Both the position numbers and the translations under genes were made by a program. The notes beneath the pieces were generated by a model, which searched no databases, was not told the DNA's origin, and saw only the letters and a list, made by a program, of their open reading frames with translations. A stretch of DNA of 64,000 bases from Sphingomonadaceae bacterium. Lineage in GTDB: Bacteria; Pseudomonadota; Alphaproteobacteria; Sphingomonadales; Sphingomonadaceae. Position 1 is the first letter of the stretch. Each line of letters starts with the position of its first letter. The stretch spans positions 1 through 64,000 of the forward strand of contig JAFAZF010000072.1 of NCBI GenBank assembly GCA_019239915.1, written 5' to 3'. This document shows, one piece after another, positions 43,492-62,825 of the stretch.

Positions 43492-43545
43492 GCCGGTGCG
43501 CGCTTGCCCCTAGAGGCGCACGCTTCCGAGAGTGAAGAGGGTAAT

Positions 43546-43791
43546 ATGGCCGACGAGCCGATCAACGTCGCGGCGGACCAACTCCGCCTGTTCATCGAGC
43601 GCATCGAGCGCCTCGAGGAGGAGAAGAAGGGCATCGCGGACGACATCAAGGACGTCTACGCGGAAGCCAAGGGCCAGGGCTACGAGACCAAGACGATGCG
43701 CCAGGTCGTCCGCCTCAGGAAGATGGCCAAGGACGCGCGCGACGAAGCCGACGCGCTGCTCGAGACGTATCGGGCGGCGCTGGGGTTCTAA
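43546..43791 (+). CDS. DUF2312 (GapR-like) nucleoid protein
   Basis: 81 residues. [50 protein letters not shown] is the DUF2312 signature. The family member GapR of Caulobacter encircles overtwisted DNA ahead of replication and transcription; this one is the right length and charge pattern. The ribosome site GAAGAGG precedes ATG 43546. Followed by a family A repeat. Confidence 0.9.
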
Positions 43792-43807
43792 GTTCCCAAC
43801 GACAAAC

Positions 43808-43890
43808 CCGTTCGCCCTGAGCCTGTCGAACGGCTGTTCTTCTTCGCCGGGACGATAAGGGCTGGGCTTCGACAAGCTCAGCCCGAACGG
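43808..43890. repeat. REP-like element, family A, copy 7
   Basis: CCGTTCGCCCTGAGCCTGTCGAACGGC ... GGCTTCGACAAGCTCAGCCCGAACGG. Inverted pair with the CTGTCGAA / TTCGACAAG arm variant, between the DUF2312 gene and yebC on the same strand. Confidence 0.75.
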
Positions 43891-43967
43891 AGTGTGAACT
43901 GGCGTAGCACGCGGACAGGCGCTAGATCGTCGCTACCTGACGGACCGAAAACGAGAGACCAGCGGCG

Positions 43968-44714
43968 ATGGCCGGCCATAGCAAGTTCAAGAACATCATG
44001 TATCGCAAGGGCGCGCAGGACAAGAAGCGTTCCGCCCTGTTCTCGAAGCTGTCCCGCGAAATCACCGTCGCGGCGCGCGCCGGCCTGCCCGATCCGAACG
44101 CGAACGCGCGGCTGCGCGCTGCGGTGATCGCGGCGCGCAAGGAGGGCATGCCCAAGGACAATATCGAGCGCTCGATCAACAAGGCGGCGGGCGGCGACGG
44201 CGAGAATTACGAGGAGGTTCGCTACGAGGGCTTCGGCCCCGGCGGCGTCGCGCTGATCATCGAGACCTTGACCGACAACCGCAACCGCACCGCCACCAAC
44301 GTCCGCACGATCGTCTCGAAGAACGGCGGCAACTTGGGCGCCGGCGGGTCGGTCAGCCACGGCTTCGATCGGCTCGGGCTGATCAACTATCCGGCGTCGG
44401 CGGGCAGCGACGAGAAGGTGTTCGAGGCGGCGCTCGAGGCGGGCGCCGAGGACGTCAGCTCCTCCGAGGACGGCCACGAGATCTGGACCGCGATCGACGG
44501 GCTGCACGAGGTCGCCAAGGCGCTCGAGCCGGTGCTCGGCGAGGCCGAGGGCATCAAGCTCGCCTGGCGCCCGCAGACCAGCGTCACGCTCGACGATGAG
44601 ACCCAGGCTGGCCAGCTCCTCAAGCTCATCGACCGGCTCGACGACGACGACGACGTCCAGACCGTCTGGGGGAATTACGAAGTGCCCGAGGCAATCATGG
44701 AAAGGCTCGGTTGA
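43968..44714 (+). CDS. yebC: YebC/PmpR family transcriptional regulator / translation factor
   Basis: 248 residues. [32 protein letters not shown] is the universal start; [34 protein letters not shown] and [14 protein letters not shown] follow. YebC proteins regulate quorum sensing (PmpR) in pseudomonads; recent work on the family also links them to relief of ribosome stalling at proline stretches. Normally next to ruvC; here a DUF559 gene and repeats are inserted between them. Confidence 0.97.
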
Positions 44715-44728
44715 GGCGGACGGGGAAG

Positions 44729-44818
44729 CCCCACCCCAACCCCTCCCCTGAAGGGGAGGGGCTAGATGGTCGCGTGAAACGTAGCCCCTCCCCTTCAGGG
44801 GAGGGGTTGGGGGTGGGG
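44729..44818. repeat. REP-like pair, family B, left of DUF559 gene
   Basis: Unit 1 CCCCACCCCAACCCCTCCCCTGAAGGGGAGGGGC and unit 2 its inverse (GCCCCTCCCCTTCAGGGGAGGGGTTGGGGGTGGGG), separated by ~20 bp. Each unit is itself a palindrome (CCCCTCCCC-TGA/TTC-GGGGAGGGG) and the two are inverted. The element begins 15 bp after the yebC stop. Unit 2 ends in the GGGGAGGGGTTGGGGGTG that seems to provide the ribosome site and start of the next gene. Confidence 0.88.
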
Positions 44819-45265
44819 AACCCGCTCACAGCTCGCGCGCGGTCGCTGCGCAGCAATCCGACCGAGCCGGAGCTTCGGCTGTGGCAAGCCCTGCGTGCTT
44901 CGCAGCTTGGCGGCCACAAATTCCGGCGGCAGGCGTCGATCGCCCGCTATTTCGCTGACTTCCTGTGCCCGGCGAAAGCGCTGATTGTCGAGATCGACGG
45001 CGATACGCACGTGAGTTTGGCGGATGCGATGCGCGATGTTGCTCTGGATGCACTCGGCTATCGCACGCTTCGCTTCTCGAATGCAGACGTGATCAAATAT
45101 CTGGACGGCGTCTTGCAGGTCATCCTTATTCAACTCGAGCAATTGCCGGATCGCTGGCCGGGCGGACCCCACCCCAACCCCTCCCCTGAAGGGGAGGGGC
45201 CACCGAGGCGTGCCGATCGAAGCCCCTCCCCTTCAGGGGAGGGGTTGGGGGTGGGGGCGCCATGA
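44813..45265 (+). CDS. DUF559 (VSR-like endonuclease fold) protein inserted between yebC and ruvC
   Basis: About 150 residues. Core: [55 protein letters not shown] ... [19 protein letters not shown], the full DUF559 pattern with E(LRLW), FRRQ, DF-C and the E-I/V-D-G-x-x-H acid/His site of the VSR-related nuclease fold. The GTG at 44813 lies after a repeat-derived GGGGAGGGG; an open frame from TTG 44711 would translate the whole left repeat. The C-terminus reads through the right repeat ([10 protein letters not shown]..., [14 protein letters not shown]) and overlaps the ruvC ATG by 4 bp. Cellular role unknown. The frame may be a passenger of the repeats or their mobiliser. Confidence 0.82.
45167..45257. 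repeat. REP-like pair, family B, right of DUF559 gene
   Basis: ACCCCACCCCAACCCCTCCCCTGAAGGGGAGGGGC ... GCCCCTCCCCTTCAGGGGAGGGGTTGGGGGTGGGGG. It has the same two-unit inverted design as the element at 44729-44818, so the nuclease core is framed by two copies. It is translated as the last ~32 residues of the DUF559 protein, and its last bases form the Shine-Dalgarno-like GGGG region before ruvC. Confidence 0.88.
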
Positions 45266-45756
45266 TCCTGATCGGCCTCGATCCGGGGCTCGGCACGACC
45301 GGGTGGGGGGTGATCTTCGCCGAGGGCAATCGGTTGGGCCATGTCGCCAACGGCCAGATCGGCACGCGTGCGACCGATCCGCTCGCGGCGCGGCTCGCCG
45401 CGCTGCACGCGCAGCTCTGCGCGGTGATCGCCGGGCATGATTGCGCTGCCGCCGCGGTCGAGGAGGTGTTCGTCAACGCCAATCCGCAATCGACGCTGAA
45501 GCTCGGCCAGGCGCGCGGCGTCGTGCTGCTCGCCGCAGCGCAGGCCGGTGTCCCCGTCGGCGAATATGCGCCGCGGCTGGTCAAGAAGGCGGTGGTCGGC
45601 ACCGGCGCCGCCGAGAAGGCGCAGGTCCACGCGATGGTGTCGCGGCTGCTGCCGAGTGCGAAGATCGCCGGTGCGGACGCGGCCGACGCGCTCGCGGTGG
45701 CGATCTGCCACGCGCACCATCTCGCCTCCGCTCGCGCGTTGAAAGGCGCCGCGTGA
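45262..45756 (+). CDS. ruvC: Crossover junction endodeoxyribonuclease RuvC
   Basis: 164 residues. [18 protein letters not shown] carries the first catalytic Asp; [22 protein letters not shown] the Glu region; [17 protein letters not shown] the final Asp pair. It cuts Holliday junctions. The ATG overlaps the stop of the DUF559 frame (ATGA) and the stop overlaps ruvA (GTGA). Confidence 0.97.
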
Positions 45757-46358
45757 TCGCGCGGCTCAAGGGCGCGCTCGCCGAAGCCGGCGCGGACTTC
45801 GCGGTGATCGACGTCGGCGGTGTCGGCTATCTCGTTCAGGCGAGCGCCCGCACCTTGTCGGCGATCGGCCCGGTCGGCGGCGCGGTGATGATCTTCACGC
45901 AGATGCAGGTGCGCGAGGATGCGATCACGCTCTACGGCTTCGGCTCGGCGGCCGAGCGCGATTGGTTCGGGCTGCTGACCAGCGTCCAGGGGGTCGGCGG
46001 CCGCGTCGCGCTCGCGATCCTCTCGGTGCTGGCGCCCGATGAACTCGCGCGCGCGGTCAACGCCGGCGACAAGGCGATGGTCGCGCGCGCCAACGGCGTC
46101 GGGCCGAAGCTGGCGCTGCGCATCGTCAACGAGCTCAAGGACAAGGCGCTGCTCGAAGGCGGCGCCAGCCTCGGCACCGCGCTCGCACCGGCTGCGGGCG
46201 GCGGCGTGCTCGCGGACGCACGTTCGGCGCTTGCCAATCTCGGCTTCAAGCCCGGCGAGGCGAGCGCGGCGGTGACGGCGGCGGCGGACGAACTTGGCGA
46301 GGGCGCCGGGCTCGACGCGCTGGTCCGCCTCGCGCTCAGGAAAGCGTCGAAAGGCTAG
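45753..46358 (+). CDS. ruvA: Holliday junction DNA helicase subunit RuvA
   Basis: 201 residues. OB domain ([29 protein letters not shown]), two helix-hairpin-helix segments ([20 protein letters not shown] and [21 protein letters not shown]), and the C-terminal domain III that binds RuvB ([16 protein letters not shown]). GTG start overlapping the ruvC stop. It converges with a glycosyltransferase-like gene and shares the bases CTAG between the two stop codons. Confidence 0.97.
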
Positions 46359-47848
46359 GCGTCCTCGCGCCGGAGGACGTGCTGCATCTCGAGATCGGGC
46401 GCGGCGCGCGCATCGCAGCCGCCCGGTCGTTCCCACAGGCAGATGCCGTCCGCGCCGGTGCCGCGGCAGGCGATCGGGCGATAGCCGAGCCGGGGCGCGT
46501 CAGTCTCGTCTGCGGGTGCGATCAGGCCGTTATAGGCGGGCGTACCGCGCAGGAGATCGCGCCGCGCCGCCGCGGGCGTCGTCCGCCATGGGAGGTAGAG
46601 CGGCACGGCGCGGTGCAGATAGGCATGGCCCGCCGTCCAATAAGGCGTGCGATAGACCGCGACGCCGCACAGCCGCGCATCCTTTCCGGCAAGGCGGGCG
46701 ATGCGCAGGCGATCGGCATAATGCGCCTCGTAGGACGGCATCGGCCGCACGGCGGCGAGACCCGCCGAGAGCGCCGTCCAGCCGAGGATCAGCGCGAGCC
46801 ACGCCGTGCGCCGCCGCGCCGGTGCTGCGGCACGCGTCGCCAGTTCCGCCGAGCCGATCGCGGCGAGCAGCAGCAGCGTCTCCGCCGGTAACCAGATGTA
46901 GCGATATTCCTTGTGTCCGATCGCCATGTGCAGCGCGAGCGTCGCCAGCGCGGCGGCGAGCAGCGCCAGGTGACGGCGCGCGACCGGCGCGATCAGCAGC
47001 GGCGCGGCGAGTGCGAGCGGGCCCCATTGCAGCAGCAGCATGCCGAGATAGGCGAACGGCGGCAGCGTCCCGCCGATCGCTGCGGCGCGGTGCTCGATCA
47101 CGTTGAGGCGCAGATTGGCGAACGCTTGGCCGAACGGGATCTGGCCCATCGCGACATCGACGCATGCCGATGCGAGCAGCACCGGCACCGCACCTGCGAC
47201 CAGCGCTCCCCAGCCGCGCCAATCGCGGCGCAACTCGAGCAGCGCCAGGATAGCGGCGGCCGGCGCATATTGCGGGCGCAGCACGGCGGCAAACCCGAGC
47301 AGCGCTCCGGCGGCGACGCGACGGCGGCCCGGTCTGTCGATGAGGGCGGCGGCGGCCAGGAAGCAGTCGGTGACGATCGGCTCGATCATGACGTGATCGG
47401 CGAATATGATCGCCTCGTACCAGATCGCGAGCACGGCGGCGGCGGCGAGGCCATGCGCCGGCGAATGCCGCCTGCCGATCGCCCAAGCCGCCCAGATCGC
47501 GCCCAGCGAAAGTAGCATCACGCACAAGCGCGGCAGCAGCAGGTAGAGGTCGCCGCCGGGATCGAGCGCCTCTCCGATCCGCATCGGCACGCTGAGCAAC
47601 AGCGGCACGAGCGCATTGCGCAGCCCGTAGCGGACATCCCACGGCACCACGCCGGTGCCGAAGGCGAGGCGATGCGCCTGTTCGAGATATTGGACGGTCT
47701 CGTCGGGGTGGAAGAAGCCGTAGGGGCTGAGCAGCGCGAGCCGCAGCCCGAACGCCAGCACCAGGATCGCCGCGAAGGCAAGCCGCGCGCGGCGATCGTC
47801 CGCGGCAGCGGCCATCGCTTCGACGTGCGGGATCGGCTCCATCAGCAT
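46355..47848 (-). CDS. GT22-like (ALG9/PIG-B type) mannosyltransferase-like membrane protein
   Basis: About 497 residues with ~10 transmembrane segments. The first loop has [34 protein letters not shown], the H-P-D-E...G-x-G...T/PWD pattern of GT22 (ALG9, ALG12, PIG-B), and a later loop [10 protein letters not shown] matches the HKEERF motif of the same family. GT22 enzymes use polyprenyl-phosphate mannose and are rare in bacteria. A possible donor-maker, GT2-GtrA, is encoded at 39.5 kb. Starts at 47848 or 47842 (ATG) or 47875 (TTG) are all possible. It lies antisense between ruvA and ruvB, splitting that operon. Confidence 0.82.
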
Positions 47849-47933
47849 CGCGCGACCATCCGCCAATATGGTCAAAGTCCTGTTAACCGCGTCGCACTCG
47901 ACAGCCGCCCGCCGGAACGTCTAGGCAACATTC

Positions 47934-48956
47934 GTGACCGACACCGACCGCCTGACCACGCCGACGCGCCGGCCGGAGGATGCCGATGCGGCGCTGCGCC
48001 CGAAGGCGCTCGACGAGTTCGTCGGTCAGGCAGCGGCGCGCGACAATCTTCGCGTGTTCATTGCTGCCGCCAAGGCGCGCGGCGAAGCGCTCGATCATGT
48101 GCTGTTCTTCGGGCCGCCGGGGCTTGGCAAGACGACGCTCGCGCAGATCGTCGCGCGCGAGCTCGGCGTCGGCTTCCGCGCGACGTCGGGGCCGGTGATC
48201 GCCAAGTCGGGCGATCTCGCCGCGCTGCTCACCAATCTCGAGGACGGCGACGTGCTGTTCATCGACGAGATCCACCGGCTCAATCCGGCGGTCGAGGAGG
48301 TGCTTTATCCGGCGATGGAGGATCGCGCGCTCGATCTCATGATCGGCGAGGGGCCGTCGGCGCGCTCGGTGCGGATCGAGCTGCCGCGCTTCACGCTGGT
48401 CGGCGCGACGACGCGGCAGGGCCTGCTGACGACGCCGCTGCGCGATCGCTTCGGCATCCCGATCCGGCTCAATTTCTACACGATCGGCGAGCTGGAGCAG
48501 GTCGTCGCGCGCGCCGCCGGCCTGCTCAGGCTCTCGATCGCGCGGGACGGCGCGCACGAGATCGCCCGCCGCTCGCGCGGCACGCCGCGTATCGCCGGCC
48601 GGCTGCTGCGCCGCGTCCGCGACTTCGCGCACGCCGCCGGCCACGACGTCATCGACGCGAAGGGCGCCGACGGCGCGCTCAACCGGCTCGAGGTCGACGC
48701 TCTCGGTCTGGATGCGATGGATCGCCGCTATCTGACGATGATCGCGGACATCTATCGCGGCGGCCCGGTCGGCGTCGAGACGCTCGCGGCTGGACTTGCC
48801 GAGCCGCGCGACACCATCGAGGAGGTCGTCGAGCCCTATCTCATCCAGATCGGCCTGATCGCGCGCACCGCGCGCGGCCGCTGCCTCAACTCGCGCGGCT
48901 GGACGCATCTCGGCCTGCCGGTGCCCGAGGGCGGCCAGGGCGGCCTGTTCGACTAG
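47934..48956 (+). CDS. ruvB: Holliday junction DNA helicase subunit RuvB
   Basis: 340 residues. AAA+ motor: [11 protein letters not shown] start, Walker [14 protein letters not shown], Walker [18 protein letters not shown], sensor [19 protein letters not shown], and the C-terminal winged helix ([26 protein letters not shown]). GTG start. Separated from ruvC-ruvA by the antisense GT22-like gene, so it needs its own promoter. Its stop shares CTAG with the convergent hydrolase gene. Confidence 0.97.
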
Positions 48957-49924
48957 TCCCGATCGCCGGGCGCATCCGTTCGGTCCGGGTGCAGCGCCCG
49001 CTTGAGTGCGGCGAGCGAATTGGCGTTGGCGTTCTTCGCCACCGGCGCATCGCTGAAGACCTCGAAGCCATGATAGGCGCCCGGATAGACGTGCAGTTCG
49101 GTGGGTACGCCGGCCCGGATCAAGCGGCGGGCATATTCGAGGTCTTCCTCGAGGAAGAGATCGAGCGCGCCGACCGCGATGAAGCTCGGCGGCAGCCCGG
49201 CGAGATCGGGCGCGCGCGCCGCCGCGGCATAGTGCGGCACGTCCGCGCCGCCGGGCTCGCGGCCTAGCAGCGAGGACCAGCCGAAACGGTTCTGCTCGGG
49301 TGTCCAGACGAACTCGCCCGTATAGGGATGACGCTCGGCCGTGCAGGTACGATCGTCGATCATCGAGTAGATGAGGTGCTGGTGGATGAGCGGGATCTCG
49401 CCGCGATCGCGCGCGATCAGCGCGAGCGCCGCGGCCAGCCCGCCGCCGGCGCTCTCACCGCCGATCGCGATCCGGGCACGATCGACGCGAAGGGCATCGG
49501 CATCGTCGTGCAGCCAGGCGAGCGCCGCATAGCAATCCTCGAGCGGCCCCGGATGCGGCGTTTCGGGCGCAAGACGATAATCGACCGAGACGACCACGCA
49601 ATCGGCCGCGGCCGCGCGCCCGGCATTGGTCGCGTTCGCCATCGCCGCGCTGCCGATGACATAGCCGCCGCCATGGATGTGGAGCAGCGCCGGCCGCGTC
49701 CTCGCTTCGCCCTTCGGCGTCAGGATCACGATGCCGATCTCATGGCCCTCGCGCGTCGCGATGCGGCGCTCCTCGATCGTTGCCGGCAACGTCTCGGGAT
49801 CGGGCGTCGGCAGCGCGCCCAGGCCATCTCGGATCATCGGCAGCAGCGTCGCCATGTCTCCCCTCGGCGGGAACATCTCGAGCGCGGCGAGGAGTTCGGG
49901 GTCGATGAGATGGCGTGACGACAT
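48953..49924 (-). CDS. Alpha/beta hydrolase, HSL (acetyl-hydrolase) family
   Basis: 323 residues. Oxyanion motif [12 protein letters not shown], nucleophile [13 protein letters not shown], Asp in [12 protein letters not shown] and His in GAYHGFEVF: a complete hormone-sensitive-lipase-type catalytic triad. Acts on short-chain esters; the natural substrate is unknown. ATG 49924 gives [20 protein letters not shown], a usual family start. Four-base tail overlap with ruvB. Confidence 0.92.
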
Positions 49925-50080
49925 CGCGCGCTTTCCTCTCCGGCTTAGGATTTCCGCATAGCGGGTTAGGCAATCGGCCAAAAGACCGCGCGCGTGCGTC
50001 CATCGGCCGCAAGAGTGTGGATGAACCGGGCGTGCGGGGTTTACCCACCGCATGGTCTGACTCTAAAGCCCGGAATGAAC

Positions 50081-50545
50081 ATGGTTAGCGGCCAGGATCA
50101 CCCCCAGCGTGGACGCATCGCCGAGGATGGCGAGCATCGCTTCCCCGTGCGCGTCTATTTCGAGGATACCGATGCGGGCGGCGTCGTCTACCACGCCAAT
50201 TATCTTCGCTTCATGGAGCGCGCGCGCAGCGACATGCTCGCCTGCGCGGGCATCGATCAGCGCAGCGCGCTGGAGGCGGGCGAGGGCCTCTACGCGATCA
50301 CCGAGCTCGCGGTGCGCTATCGCCGCGCCGCCAAGCTCGACGACGCGCTGGTGATCGCGAGCAAGGTCCGGAAACTCGGCGCTGCCCGGTGCGTCATTCA
50401 GCAGACAGTCAGCCGCGGCGCGGAGATCATGGCCGAGGCGGAAGTGACCGCGGCCTTCGTCACGCCGGAAGGCCGTCCGCGTCGCCAGCCGCTGCCGTTC
50501 GTCGAGGCGCTGAAGAGCTTCAACGGCTCGCATATCAAGGGGTAA
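50081..50545 (+). CDS. ybgC: Acyl-CoA thioesterase YbgC
   Basis: About 154 residues, hot-dog fold. The signature VYFEDTDAGGVVYHANYLRFMERAR includes the catalytic Asp. YbgC hydrolyses short acyl-CoA or acyl-ACP and is a standing member of the tol-pal operon, possibly linked to phospholipid metabolism. An ATG at 50075 would add two residues. It leads the operon, 9 bp before tolQ. Confidence 0.95.
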   Translation: MVSGQDHPQRGRIAEDGEHRFPVRVYFEDTDAGGVVYHANYLRFMERARSDMLACAGIDQRSALEAGEGLYAITELAVRYRRAAKLDDALVIASKVRKLGAARCVIQQTVSRGAEIMAEAEVTAAFVTPEGRPRRQPLPFVEALKSFNGSHIKG

Positions 50546-50554
50546 TGCCAGCCT

Positions 50555-51253
50555 ATGCAGGCCAGTAGTCAGATCGCCGCCGGAACGGCCACCATCTCGC
50601 CGATCCACCTGTTCCTGAACGCGGACATCATCGTGAAGTTCGTGATGCTCGGGCTGCTGGCGGCGAGCATCTGGACGTGGTCGATCATCATCGCCCACGC
50701 GCTCCGGATGCAGCGCACGCGCGAGGCCAATGACCGCTTCGAACGCGACTTCTGGAAGGCCGAGGACATCGACAATTTCTACACGTCGCGGCGCGGCAGC
50801 GATCTGCCGAGCGCGCGCGTGCTCGGCGCCGGCATCACCGAATGGCGGCGCTCGACGAGCGGCGAGAACATCGATCGTGACGGCACCCGCTCGCGGCTCG
50901 CGACCGCGCTCGGCGCCGCGATCGCCGTCGAGATCGACAAGCTGTCGGATCGGCTCAACATCCTTGCGACGGTCGGCTCGGTGGCGCCATTCGTCGGGCT
51001 GTTCGGCACGGTGTGGGGCATCATGCGCTCGTTCACCGACATCGCCGCGCAGCAGAACACCAACCTCGCGGTGGTCGCCCCCGGCATCGCCGAGGCGCTG
51101 TTCGCGACCGCGCTCGGCCTGTTTGCCGCGATCCCGGCGGTGATCGCGTACAACCGCCTCAGCCATGGCATCAACCGGCTCGAGGCGCGGCTCAACCGCT
51201 TCGCCGACGGCTTCCACGCGACGCTCAGCCGCGAGCTCGAAAATGAGGCGTGA
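50555..51253 (+). CDS. tolQ: Tol-Pal system protein TolQ
   Basis: 232 residues with three transmembrane helices: ~26-46 (IVKFVMLGLLAASIWTWSII), ~136-160 (ILATVGSVAPFVGLFGTVWGIM) and ~175-195 (GIAEALFATALGLFAAIPAV). Forms the proton-driven motor with TolR and TolA for outer-membrane constriction at division. A family B repeat separates it from tolR. Confidence 0.96.
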   Translation: MQASSQIAAGTATISPIHLFLNADIIVKFVMLGLLAASIWTWSIIIAHALRMQRTREANDRFERDFWKAEDIDNFYTSRRGSDLPSARVLGAGITEWRRSTSGENIDRDGTRSRLATALGAAIAVEIDKLSDRLNILATVGSVAPFVGLFGTVWGIMRSFTDIAAQQNTNLAVVAPGIAEALFATALGLFAAIPAVIAYNRLSHGINRLEARLNRFADGFHATLSRELENEA

Positions 51254-51271
51254 GGCTGTTCTCAAACTAAA

Positions 51272-51417
51272 GCCCCTCCCTTTCAAGGGAGGGGTTGAGG
51301 TGGGTGCGCGCGTCTGCGCGCCAAACGGCCACTATACGCCAAGCCGGAGCGCCGTCGGGGCATCGAGCCCCGTCGTCGTTTACCCCACCCCAACCCCTCC
51401 CCTGAAGGGGAGGGGCG
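51272..51417. repeat. REP-like pair, family B, inside tol operon
   Basis: GCCCCTCCCTTTCAAGGGAGGGGTTGAGGTGGG and the inverse CCCCACCCCAACCCCTCCCCTGAAGGGGAGGGGC, separated by ~75 bp. Same family as the DUF559 flanks, but with no nuclease gene between the units. It fills the 186-bp tolQ-tolR gap, an unusual interruption for this operon, and could alter relative TolQ:TolR levels. Confidence 0.85.
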
Positions 51418-51439
51418 ACTTTCGTTCGGGGGTCTGCTG

Positions 51440-51919
<480 letters not shown>

Positions 51920-51933
51920 GCGGGGCGGCTAGG

Positions 51934-53145
51934 GTGGATCGCGCCGAACGCGAGGGCATCGGCGCATCGGTCGCCGCGCATGTGCTGCTGTTCGCGGCGC
52001 TGTCGCTGGGGCTGCTCGCGCCGAAGCCGAAGCCGCCGCTCGCCTCGACCTCGATGAACGTCTCGATGATTTCCGAGGCGGCACTGCGCGCGGAGCTGCA
52101 GGGACCGCCCAAGGCGGCGCCGAAGGCCCGCCAGGCGCCGGAGGTCGGCAAGCCGGAGGAAGCCGCGCCGCCCAAGCCCGCGCCCGCGCCCGCGCCGAAA
52201 CCCGCGCCGGCCGCCAAGCCGGCCGCCGCGCCTGCGCCCGAACCGAAGCCACAACCCAAGCCGACGCCGCCGAAGCCGGAGCCCAAGCCCGCGCCGAAGC
52301 CGGAACCGAAACCCGCTCCGAAGCCGGAGCCCAAGCCGGTCCCGAAGCCCGAGCCCAAGCCGGTGCCGAAACCGAAGCCGGAACCTAAGCCGGTTCCAAA
52401 ACCCGAGCCGAAGCCCAAGCCCGAGCCCAAGCCGAAACCGGCGCCGGAAAAGGTGAAGCCGACACCGCCGAAGCCGGCACCCCAGAAGCCGGCGCCGGAG
52501 AAGGCGGAGAAACCAGCCAAGACGAAGCCCGAGAAGGCGGCGCCGGAGAAGTCCGCGCCCGCCAAGCCGGCGGAGAAGCCGAGCGCGAAGGCGTCCGCGG
52601 CATCCGAGAAGGCGCCGCCGGGCAAGGCCGCGCCGGCGGGATCGAAGCTCGCCAAGGGCGACAAGGCGTTCACGCTACCGACCGATCTCTCCGCCAAGGA
52701 GGGCAACGGCGCCAGCGGCAAGGCCGAGAAGCGCGCCGGCTCGCGGCTCGGCGCCGATTTCTCGAAGGACATCGCCGCCGCAGCGGCTTCGGGCAAGAGC
52801 GCGGGCTCCAGCGCCGCCAAGTCCGCGCCGGTGAGCGCGCGCCAGATGGCGGGGCTCGTCGGCCTGATCCGATCGAAGGTGGAGCCCTGCTACAACCCGC
52901 CCGCCGGCGGTGCCGACGCCGCCCAGATCGTCACGACGCTCAGCATCCGCATGAACAAGGATGGGTCGGTGGTGTCGGTCGCGGCGGGCAGGCAATCGGG
53001 CGTCACGGACTCGAACCAGGCCTACGCCAAGCAGATGGCTGACGCCGCCAAGCGCGCGGTGCTACGCTGCTCGCCGATCAAGGACCTGCCGGCCGATCTC
53101 TATGCGGGAGGCTGGGACGACTTCGATTTCGTGTTCCATCCGTAA
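51934..53145 (+). CDS. tolA: Tol-Pal system protein TolA (Pro-Lys-rich)
   Basis: 403 residues. N-terminal membrane helix ~10-28 ([20 protein letters not shown]); a ~200-residue low-complexity arm built from KPEP, KPAP and KPVP repeats that would span the periplasm as polyproline instead of the Ala-rich helix of E. coli; C-terminal TonB/TolA-like domain ([19 protein letters not shown] ... [12 protein letters not shown] ... [12 protein letters not shown]) with a Cys pair. GTG start after AGG. The repetitive DNA gives spurious open frames on the other strand. Confidence 0.93.
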
Positions 53146-55112: not shown

Positions 55113-55223
55113 TTTCCCTCTCCTCCGCCGGGGAGAGGGCTGGGTGAGGGGGATTCCGGCGCAGCCGGGCGTCTGCGCAACCTATGGCGGACACCCTCAC
55201 CCAACCCTCTCCGTGAGGGGGCG
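55113..55223. repeat. REP-like element related to family B, after pal
   Basis: TTTCCCTCTCCTCCGCCGGGGAGAGGGCTGGGTGAGGG ... CCCTCACCCAACCCTCTCCGTGAGGGG. Two inverted units around ~45 bp, like family B but with diverged arms (CTGGGTGAGGG for GTTGGGGGTGGGG). Starts 6 bp after the pal stop and probably ends the tol-pal transcript. Confidence 0.75.
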
Positions 55224-62355: not shown

Positions 62356-62411
62356 TCCTCCCCATCGCAGATGGGGAGGGGGACCATCCGCGCAGCGGAT
62401 GGTGGAGGGGA
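62356..62411. repeat. REP-like pair, family F, left of second DUF559 gene
   Basis: Hairpin 1 CCTCCCCATCGCAGATGGGGAGG followed by hairpin 2 GACCATCCGCGCAGCGGATGGT, then GGAGGGG. The last bases supply the purine-rich ribosome site right before the DUF559 ATG. The matching right element has the same two hairpin types in reverse order. Confidence 0.82.
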
Positions 62412-62825
62412 ATGGCGGAGCGCTCGACCGTCCTGAAAGCGCGTGGCCTACGGCGCGCGATGACGAAACCGGAACTGGCGCTCTGGGATAGGCTGCGGAA
62501 ACGCCCGGCAGGCATCAAGTTTAGACGCCAGCATCCTGTCGGACCGTTCGTGCTGGATTTCTATTGCCCCGCAACGCGGGTCGCGATCGAAGTCGATGGT
62601 GTGACCCATGAGATGGGCGGCAATCCGGCACGGGACGCGCGGCGCGACCAATGGCTTGCGAGCCGAGGGATCGCCGTGCTTCGGCTCAGCGCGCGCGATG
62701 TGCTTGGCGATCTCGAGGCCATCCTCGGCGCGATCATCCGGCGCTGCGCGCCGCCCCTGCACCAGCCTGCGGCTGGTCCCCCTCCCCATGCTGCGCATGG
62801 GGGAGGACTGAACGACCGCTCTTGA
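62412..62825 (+). CDS. DUF559 (VSR-like endonuclease fold) protein, second copy
   Basis: About 137 residues. AMTKPELALWDRLRKRPAGIKFRRQHPVGPFVLDFYCPATRVAIEVDGVTHEMG ... GIAVLRLSARDVLGDLEAIL: all DUF559 landmarks, including FRRQHP, DF-C and the EVDG-x-x-H site. It is only distantly similar to the 44.8-kb copy, so not a recent duplicate. ATG 62412 follows GGAGGGG from the left repeat; an upstream ATG at 62304 would translate that repeat. The C-terminal ~22 residues (HQPAAGPPPHAAHGGG...) are translated repeat. Function unknown; related folds nick or repair DNA. Confidence 0.82.
   Translation: MAERSTVLKARGLRRAMTKPELALWDRLRKRPAGIKFRRQHPVGPFVLDFYCPATRVAIEVDGVTHEMGGNPARDARRDQWLASRGIAVLRLSARDVLGDLEAILGAIIRRCAPPLHQPAAGPPPHAAHGGGLNDRS
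62760..62807. repeat. REP-like pair, family F, right of second DUF559 gene
   Basis: CACCAGCCTGCGGCTGGT followed by CCTCCCCATGCTGCGCATGGGGGAGG. The order of hairpin types is opposite to the left element, so the two flank the gene as an inverted set. It lies within the 3' end of the reading frame. Confidence 0.8.

Follow-up and report, generated by a model that had tools for sequence, protein, structure and literature searches.

The repeats closest to those described here are the intrastrand triplex motifs (TM, earlier called PIT). According to the part of PMC4666352 available to us, these consist of a hairpin and a third-strand arm (CCCTCTCCC..GGGAGAGGG..GGGTGAGGG), lie between genes either singly or as inverted pairs, and are present in more than 260 genomes, with 23 in E. 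coli K-12. The same part shows triplex formation in vitro for the E. coli motif and ties TMs to genome instability; it reports no association with mobile elements, leaves the spread of the repeats unexplained, and contains no mention of DUF559 or ycjD that we could find. In alphaproteobacteria, the host class of the genome studied here, CGTC-tagged REPs have been described as palindromic repeats without an associated transposase (PMC3733652, in the portion at hand); our repeats are likewise palindromic, but differ from them in tag and sequence. On the protein side, VsrA of Caulobacter crescentus, a DUF559 protein like that of our locus, has been studied as a repair enzyme. The accessible text of PMC12907096 reports that cells lacking the ScmA methyltransferase mount an SOS response for which VsrA is responsible, which means that the DUF559 family can damage DNA in vivo, and proposes that it acts in mismatch repair; the string 'palindrom' is absent from this text. 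Each half of the system presented below is known already, the repeats as TM/PIT and the Vsr-like domain as DUF559, and among the titles and abstract openings listed by searches of the open-access literature none connected a nuclease of either description, DUF559 or Vsr-like, to repeats of palindromic or triplex type.

We analysed a stretch of 64,000 nt, called the window, in which a DUF559 open frame lies between yebC and ruvC (Table 1). The genome of the window is labelled G000, nine other genomes of its genus are G001-G009, and individual loci carry L-numbers. A first-pass annotation of the window had placed a VSR-like nuclease gene between two copies of a two-unit inverted repeat, and both parts of this description were confirmed: the repeats are present at 44729-44818 and 45167-45257, with four hairpins formed by CCCCTCCCC/GGGGAGGGG, and the gene product matches DUF559 (PF04480, E 4.1e-30, 104.3 bits against a cut-off of 20.6). 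The inner pair, U2 and U3, is laid out like the other DUF559 elements of G000, with the hairpin outer and the arm inner, and in both units the arm fits its stem as a third strand at 10 of 10 positions (U2, left end of L004, stem AGGGGAGGGG and arm GGGGTGGGGA; U3, right end of L004). This copy carries additional outward half-units, and one resembling U1 is also present at yebC-ruvC of G038 (L055). With related elements occupying yebC-ruvC in three further genera, this copy appears to be old.

Table 1. Features of the window, in window coordinates.
Feature	Position	Strand	Remarks
Inverted repeat pair, GTTCGTCCTGAGC..GTCGAAGGAC type	43828-43893		upstream of yebC
yebC	43968-44714		
U1, outer left unit	44729-44764	-	arm (CCCCACCCC) points outward; hairpin 44740-44761
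U2, inner left end	44785-44817	+	hairpin 44785-44806; third-strand arm towards gene
DUF559 gene (Vsr-like, PD-(D/E)XK nuclease)	44813-45265	+	likely GTG start; stop overlapping ruvC
U3, inner right end	45167-45199	-	arm towards gene; hairpin 45178-45199; 11 residues of the protein are translated U3
U4, outer right unit	45223-45256	+	hairpin 45223-45244; arm outward
ruvC	from 45262		
Miniature element, tolQ-tolR	51273-51415	.	two outer hairpins, arms inside, no gene
Single triplex-type unit after pal	55115-55154	+	CCCTCTCC family; repeat copy at 55115-55140, stem with one mismatch
Second DUF559 element (L010)	62356-62807	+	two-hairpin (CCTCCCC) end family
DUF559 domain of second element	62433-62747	+	PF04480, E 1.6e-27

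As the first-pass annotation had it, the repeat supplies the ribosome site and the start of the gene, since U2 provides both a GGAGG in its hairpin and, 8 nt further on in the arm, the start codon, likely GTG at 44813 (or TTG at 44807). The gene ends in a TGA (45263-45265) that overlaps the ruvC ATG (45262) in a shared ATGA, again as described. Translation through the repeats stood on the right, where the frame crosses U3 and U4, and is doubtful on the left, because the TTG at 44711 is just where the open frame first offers a start codon and the likely start lies inside the arm. Among 103 elements with a right-hand hairpin, the frame crosses it in 79, ends before it in 21 and ends inside it in 3; with the stop preceding the hairpin in 21, a C-terminal tail was dropped as an essential feature. 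The reading frame of this tail differs between families (by eye). Reading through the hairpin is thus solid only at the 3' end and is dispensable elsewhere. An RNA family was also considered and set aside, as no Rfam match reached the gathering score within positions 43500-52000 of the window. The inverted repeat pair upstream of yebC is of a type that also occurs in the yebC-ruvC gap of G001, G004, G008 and G009, indicating that repeat families alternate at intergenic sites.

By their sequence, the ends of the DUF559 elements are the intrastrand triplex motifs (TM/PIT) of PMC4666352, with which, as far as the available part of that paper goes, they share the hairpin with third-strand arm, the intergenic position and the occurrence singly or in inverted pairs. 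What sets our TMs apart is that they form the two ends of a DUF559 element; families of the CCCCTCCCC type and families with two hairpins also join those already known. The arm lies 2-3 nt past the stem in families without a second hairpin and otherwise past the second hairpin; read antiparallel, it has the sequence of the purine strand, G being placed over G and either A or T over A. Purine stems and arms correspond as GGGAGAGGG with GGGTGAGGG, GGGGAGG with GGAGGGG, GGGAGAAGG with GGATGAGGG, and AGGGAGGGG with GGGGTGGGT. A perfect third-strand fit of the arm to its own stem was found in 134 of 204 units and failed in 70, compared with 6.3% when stems of equal length were swapped and 1.0% when arms were shuffled.

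The parallel with REP sequences and their RAYT transposases, drawn in the first-pass annotation, is an apt working analogy that does not extend to the enzyme. Our elements share with REP/REPIN and RAYT systems the short palindromes, the miniature inverted pairs, a small nuclease gene framed by repeats and a copy number linked to the gene. They differ from them in encoding a PD-(D/E)XK (Vsr-like) nuclease where RAYTs are HUH/Y1 enzymes, and in a triplex arm that replaces the GTAG tag, with the hairpin outer and the arm inner in the clear miniature pairs inspected. Y1_Tnp (PF01797) was detected in one of the ten genus genomes, G000, and not in G001-G009, and only 1 of 204 units has GTAG/CTAC at a distance of up to 6 nt from its hairpin (CGTC/GACG, 4 of 204). 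Since a Y1 enzyme and a GTAG tag define REP/RAYT, the DUF559 element is set apart from that group, and a RAYT driver was rejected on the same two counts. The two Y1_Tnp genes of G000 (G000:C31:32993 and G000:C61:67011) have nearly equal scores and are perhaps a recent arrival of IS200 type.

To place the locus in a wider sample, we collected 119 DUF559 loci of the family, comprising 30 from the genus, 29 from a family-wide search and 60 among the matches listed (40 consecutive and 20 from the tail), with duplicates omitted. A TM was scored strictly, as a perfect stem of 7-12 nt with a perfect third strand in either orientation no more than 200 nt from the domain, and control windows were taken 400-600 nt out from the locus. 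A TM was present on either side of 114 of the 119 loci and on both sides of 83, against none in 233 control windows; by this test, five loci are without any TM in that range, and at 36 one or both of the sides are without one. When the left and right flanks were compared as inverted repeats, 98 of the 119 scored at least 18, while comparisons further out never did so (0/342, maximum 15). The best-scoring DUF559 matches in other families of the phylum, 27 loci chosen by score and not by random draw, gave a TM on either side in 26 and on both in 7 (controls 3/54). Named matches from a contig collection, found by protein only, gave 11 of 12 (controls 1/23), although most of these 12 are, by eye, one Sphingobium site; several loci, such as most Sphingobium matches, are orthologous sites and hence non-independent. 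YebC, the sole control gene, had a TM on either side in 5 of 30 loci and on both sides in none (controls 2/60). Together with 12 of 12 genes in G000, these counts show that most DUF559 genes, in the family and in the other families sampled, do have flanking repeats, and the link between gene and repeat that the first-pass annotation had proposed is supported.

Some loci depart from this pattern. Two of them, L224 and L266, miss the strict test yet show inverted hairpin ends by eye. From a plasmid collection we took 12 of 38 matches, picked for spread, and found a TM at 8 (controls 2/24). The four misses are from Pseudanabaena, Picosynechococcus, Synechocystis and Neisseria; in all except Synechocystis, hairpins whose sequence is different or imperfect can be seen by eye close to the gene, and the Pseudanabaena hairpin pair matches over about 90 nt. 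On a plasmid of Synechocystis sp. B12 (L250), the DUF559 gene has no TM by the strict test and overlaps a hypothetical protein just before the BREX gene pglX, that is, DUF559 stands there in a defence setting. At L039 the setting differs again, DUF559 being a weak match within a long open frame.

The number of hairpins was also compared with the number of DUF559 genes. The pattern CCTCCCN{2,16}GGGAGG occurs 152 times in G000, compared with 3 for the reversed pattern; this difference, with the 0/342 and 0/233 controls above, rules out chance repeats. For G000 to G009 the numbers of DUF559 matches and hairpins are 12/152, 2/31, 0/4, 3/36, 2/160, 1/5, 0/77, 1/38, 5/58 and 4/78, the two matches of G004 being one full-length gene and one 22-bit match and the single match of G005 being partial. 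The reversed-pattern controls in these ten genomes range from 1 to 13, so that the hairpins of G002 (4 vs 4) and G005 (5 vs 12) are at background. Across 119 family genomes, hairpin number and DUF559 number have a rank correlation of 0.645, kinship being ignored, and the reversed-pattern control gives 0.20. Median hairpin numbers are 8 in the 17 genomes without the gene, 4.5 in the 36 with one and 152 in the 7 with six or more. Overall, then, the repeats are not equally common in genomes without DUF559, with exceptions in G004 and in three hairpin-rich genomes that have no DUF559 gene (G057, 86 hairpins; G091, 30; G006, 77). Such hairpins may be miniatures that persist without a driver, or may have a different one. 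G011 and G056 have several DUF559 genes and few hairpins of the counted type; the pattern does not detect the CCCTCTCCC type, to which the ends in these genomes may belong. In G060 the mirror control pattern reached 76 against 10 for the hairpin pattern and reflects some other repeat.

A profile search of G000 identified 12 DUF559 genes, two in the window and ten elsewhere. Inverted hairpin units frame all of them, in about six sequence families by eye, and the strict script detected at least one unit by each of the 12 genes and units on both flanks of 9. Five of the twelve elements have CTCCCCTCCCTGNAAGGGAGGGG and an GGGGGTGGG-type arm in common, in three the stem is separated from the arm by a second hairpin, and one gene (L005) has a stop codon inside the domain. 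At the start of contig G000:C19 (L309), the DNA up to a hairpin resembles, by eye, the 3' end of a further DUF559 copy truncated where the contig begins; the true number in G000 may therefore exceed 12.

The repeats had also been said to be scattered alone in the window, between tolQ and tolR and after pal. At tolQ-tolR we found a full two-hairpin miniature, while the unit after pal belongs to the same class but to a different sequence family (CCCTCTCC). This miniature is missing from the tolQ-tolR junction of G001-G007, and G008 and G009 have other repeats at that place. Of 29 solo loci fetched (20 + 9), 12 have at least two hairpins according to the script, 16 have one and 1 has none, and some of the single-hairpin loci have an imperfect partner by eye. 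The clear pairs measure about 95-126 bp, with hairpins outer and arms inner, and a few miniatures mix the ends of two families (L147, L149, L153).

Comparison of DUF559 relationships with the flanking repeat family, a check proposed with the first-pass annotation, bore out the link: the two are correlated at unrelated sites (rho 0.33 between protein identity and end similarity; largest of 300 label permutations 0.095). This comparison used 113 elements and 6138 pairs at non-orthologous sites, leaving out L005, L034, L039, L092, L094 and L104. An end score of at least 25 was reached by 65% of pairs above 60% identity and by no more than 6% of pairs below 50%, which demonstrates that gene and ends co-diversify. 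Within G000, three copies (L007, L009, L011) have protein domains that are 88-95% identical and lie at unrelated sites. The DNA of these three and of L005 aligns closely between the hairpins and drops off outside, except that L005 and L009 additionally share about 50 nt outside the left hairpin, where the outer boundary is unclean. Several of the four have a common short motif beyond the right end.

The yebC-ruvC junction was read in 30 genomes of the family. A DUF559 element is present in G000, G037, G038 and G040, a TM without a gene at L057, L059 and L063, and a hairpin at L050; many short gaps have neither, and ruvC was not found at two of the 30 loci. At a second junction, serA-hisZ (names from our own reading of the flanks), 30 loci of one genus contain a DUF559-like gene in at least 8 (by eye) and miniatures or other repeats in others, the script having left 9 of the 30 unassigned; L271, L274 and L275 have a bare gap of 31 nt. 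These distributions indicate that the same sites are re-used over long times. Element-free tolQ-tolR, yebC-ruvC and serA-hisZ junctions were found between species, whose intergenic DNA is too diverged for a target duplication or exact ends to be read.

Profile search of the window gene matched DUF559 as the sole domain and no known transposase class, these being DDE, HUH, serine, tyrosine and DEDD. In an alignment of the window copy with 24 diverse copies that are 40-53% identical to it, E16, D45, E56, D58 and H62, which we take to be the catalytic residues of the PD-(D/E)XK/Vsr fold, are invariant in all 25, which points to selection on the nuclease. Profile matches include 3hrl (3.6e-35), an endonuclease-like protein of Neisseria, and 3r3p (7.7e-4), the homing endonuclease I-Bth0305I. 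The predicted structure of the window protein has a mean pLDDT of 81.5, and a Foldseek search with it returned 3hrl (E 8.7e-9) and 3r3p (3.3e-4), with Vsr 1cw0 as a weaker match (0.063). The predicted fold and the profile are therefore similar to those of I-Bth0305I, and the predicted fold appears weakly similar to that of Vsr. I-Bth0305I is an intron-borne homing enzyme and Vsr a mismatch-repair nickase, and neither is to our knowledge framed by TMs. We know of no PD-(D/E)XK nuclease that transposes an element alone, nor of a relative of the Vsr/homing fold that joins DNA strands unaided.

In E. coli K-12, ycjD (1351407-1351760) is an annotated DUF559 gene (PF04480, 167 bits). Of the TMs given in the available part of PMC4666352, number 9 (1351204-1351239) lies 168 bp from it, and a degenerate TM unit overlaps the 3' end of ycjD. 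By our own arithmetic, the chance that one of 18 TM loci falls so near a given gene is about 3 in 1000. The ycjD region, between fabI and sapF, is variable in E. coli: of 5375 matching genomes, 3364 cover 80% or more of it at a single place. An efflux operon takes that position in three strains that we read and that lack ycjD, and these offer no clean empty site. At alx-sstT, three states occur in the E. coli strains read. These are a TM pair, one hairpin on its own, and a different, longer segment that by eye has no TMs and whose annotated ORF lacks a Pfam match. The single hairpin, seen in one strain, reads as a slippage deletion as easily as an insertion.

We propose, with a probability of roughly 0.7, that the locus is an IS-like mobile element whose sole protein is the DUF559 nuclease and whose ends are TMs, and that the scattered TMs are its derivatives. 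Insertion sequence features are present, namely terminal inverted repeats, one enzyme gene, and copies at different sites (L007/L009/L011, L005). It is nearly certain that gene and ends form one unit; that this unit moves appears very probable, and DUF559 is likely to be what moves it. The element, of about 410-530 bp, would consist of one single-domain DUF559 gene between two inverted TMs, with the hairpin outermost and the arm inward. The nuclease would recognise the folded end, as hairpin or hairpin-triplex, when it is single-stranded, for example at a replication fork, and would nick or cut both there and at the target intergenic DNA, after which host replication or repair would copy the element into the break. 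Miniatures would be moved in trans, and the scattered TM/PIT repeats of proteobacteria would be non-autonomous derivatives of the element. Catalysis and transposition by the element are what we infer from these comparisons, as is the passage from cutting to insertion. For DUF559 acting on folded ends in single-stranded DNA, with host replication or repair doing the rest, we see even odds, a homing-like route being the main rival. We lean slightly towards regarding the element as a new autonomous class, in which a single-domain nuclease of the Vsr/homing fold would recognise triplex-folding ends, move them by way of host replication or repair, and drive the TM/PIT repeats.

A homing-type nuclease would cut element-free sites, or TM hairpins without a gene, and recombination would copy the gene in, which would mainly produce spread at the same site between strains. 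Such a route fits the relation of DUF559 to I-Bth0305I in predicted fold and in profile, and the filling of the same sites in different genomes (yebC-ruvC in four genomes, serA-hisZ repeatedly within one genus). Same-site homing does not account for the near-identical copies that one genome has at unrelated sites, nor for the scattered miniatures. Homing genes lie in an intron, an intein or their own recognition site; the DUF559 element lies in intergenic DNA between TM ends, which may or may not be such a site. We consider homing possible though unlikely. Lower still we place the idea that DUF559 is cargo caught between hairpins that spread by other means, such as an enzyme acting in trans, replication slippage or template switching. 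Hairpins are indeed abundant without DUF559 in G057, G091 and G006, and the E. coli strain with one hairpin of the TM pair retains what slippage between CCCTCTCCC repeats would leave. Many genes should then be framed in this way, whereas the single control gene YebC and the distant control windows are not, and a passenger would not be expected to co-diversify with the ends; moreover, seven of the nine genus genomes without a Y1 transposase have hairpins clearly above the reversed-pattern control.

Two further explanations fare worse. DUF559 could be a repair nuclease that serves the host by resolving or trimming triplex-forming hairpins, gene and repeats being selected together as a self-limiting, non-mobile unit; the DNA damage and repair associated with VsrA in Caulobacter (available part of PMC12907096) and the TMs adjoining ycjD agree with this, yet a repair gene is not expected to reach as many as 12 diverged copies in a genome, nor to have ends that change along with it, and action in trans needs no linkage, which makes this account improbable. 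That the repeats belong to a classic REP/RAYT or IS200/IS605-type system, DUF559 being incidental, is suggested by small palindromes, miniature pairs and an intergenic bias as in REPINs, and by the two Y1 transposase genes of G000. We find it very hard to maintain given the nine genus genomes in which Y1_Tnp was not found and the third-strand arm that takes the place of the GTAG or CGTC tags.

If the IS-like reading is true, DUF559 is the missing driver of TM/PIT repeats in hundreds of genomes, including E. coli, as RAYTs are for REPs. The element would offer a candidate driver for repeats whose spread the available part of PMC4666352 leaves without one, and a candidate job for a widespread domain of unknown function. 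It would also mean that a nuclease without known transposase chemistry can sustain mobile elements, and the C-terminal tails of DUF559 proteins, such as the 11-residue stretch from U3, would be explained as translated element ends.

Many DUF559 elements, for example L005, L006, L007, L009, L010, L011, L012, L028 and L030, have in common a motif that by eye is TTTCCACCA / TGGTGGAAA-like and lies some 10-30 nt beyond their ends, possibly a preferred target repeat. At yebC-ruvC of G040 (L048, 2656-2704) and G037 (L066, 2271-2334), foreign palindromic inserts (AGTGCAGCGGC..GCCGCTGCACT and AGTTGCAGGT..ACCTGCAACT) split a hairpin unit of the DUF559 element, and these are perhaps a further small element that targets TM hairpins.
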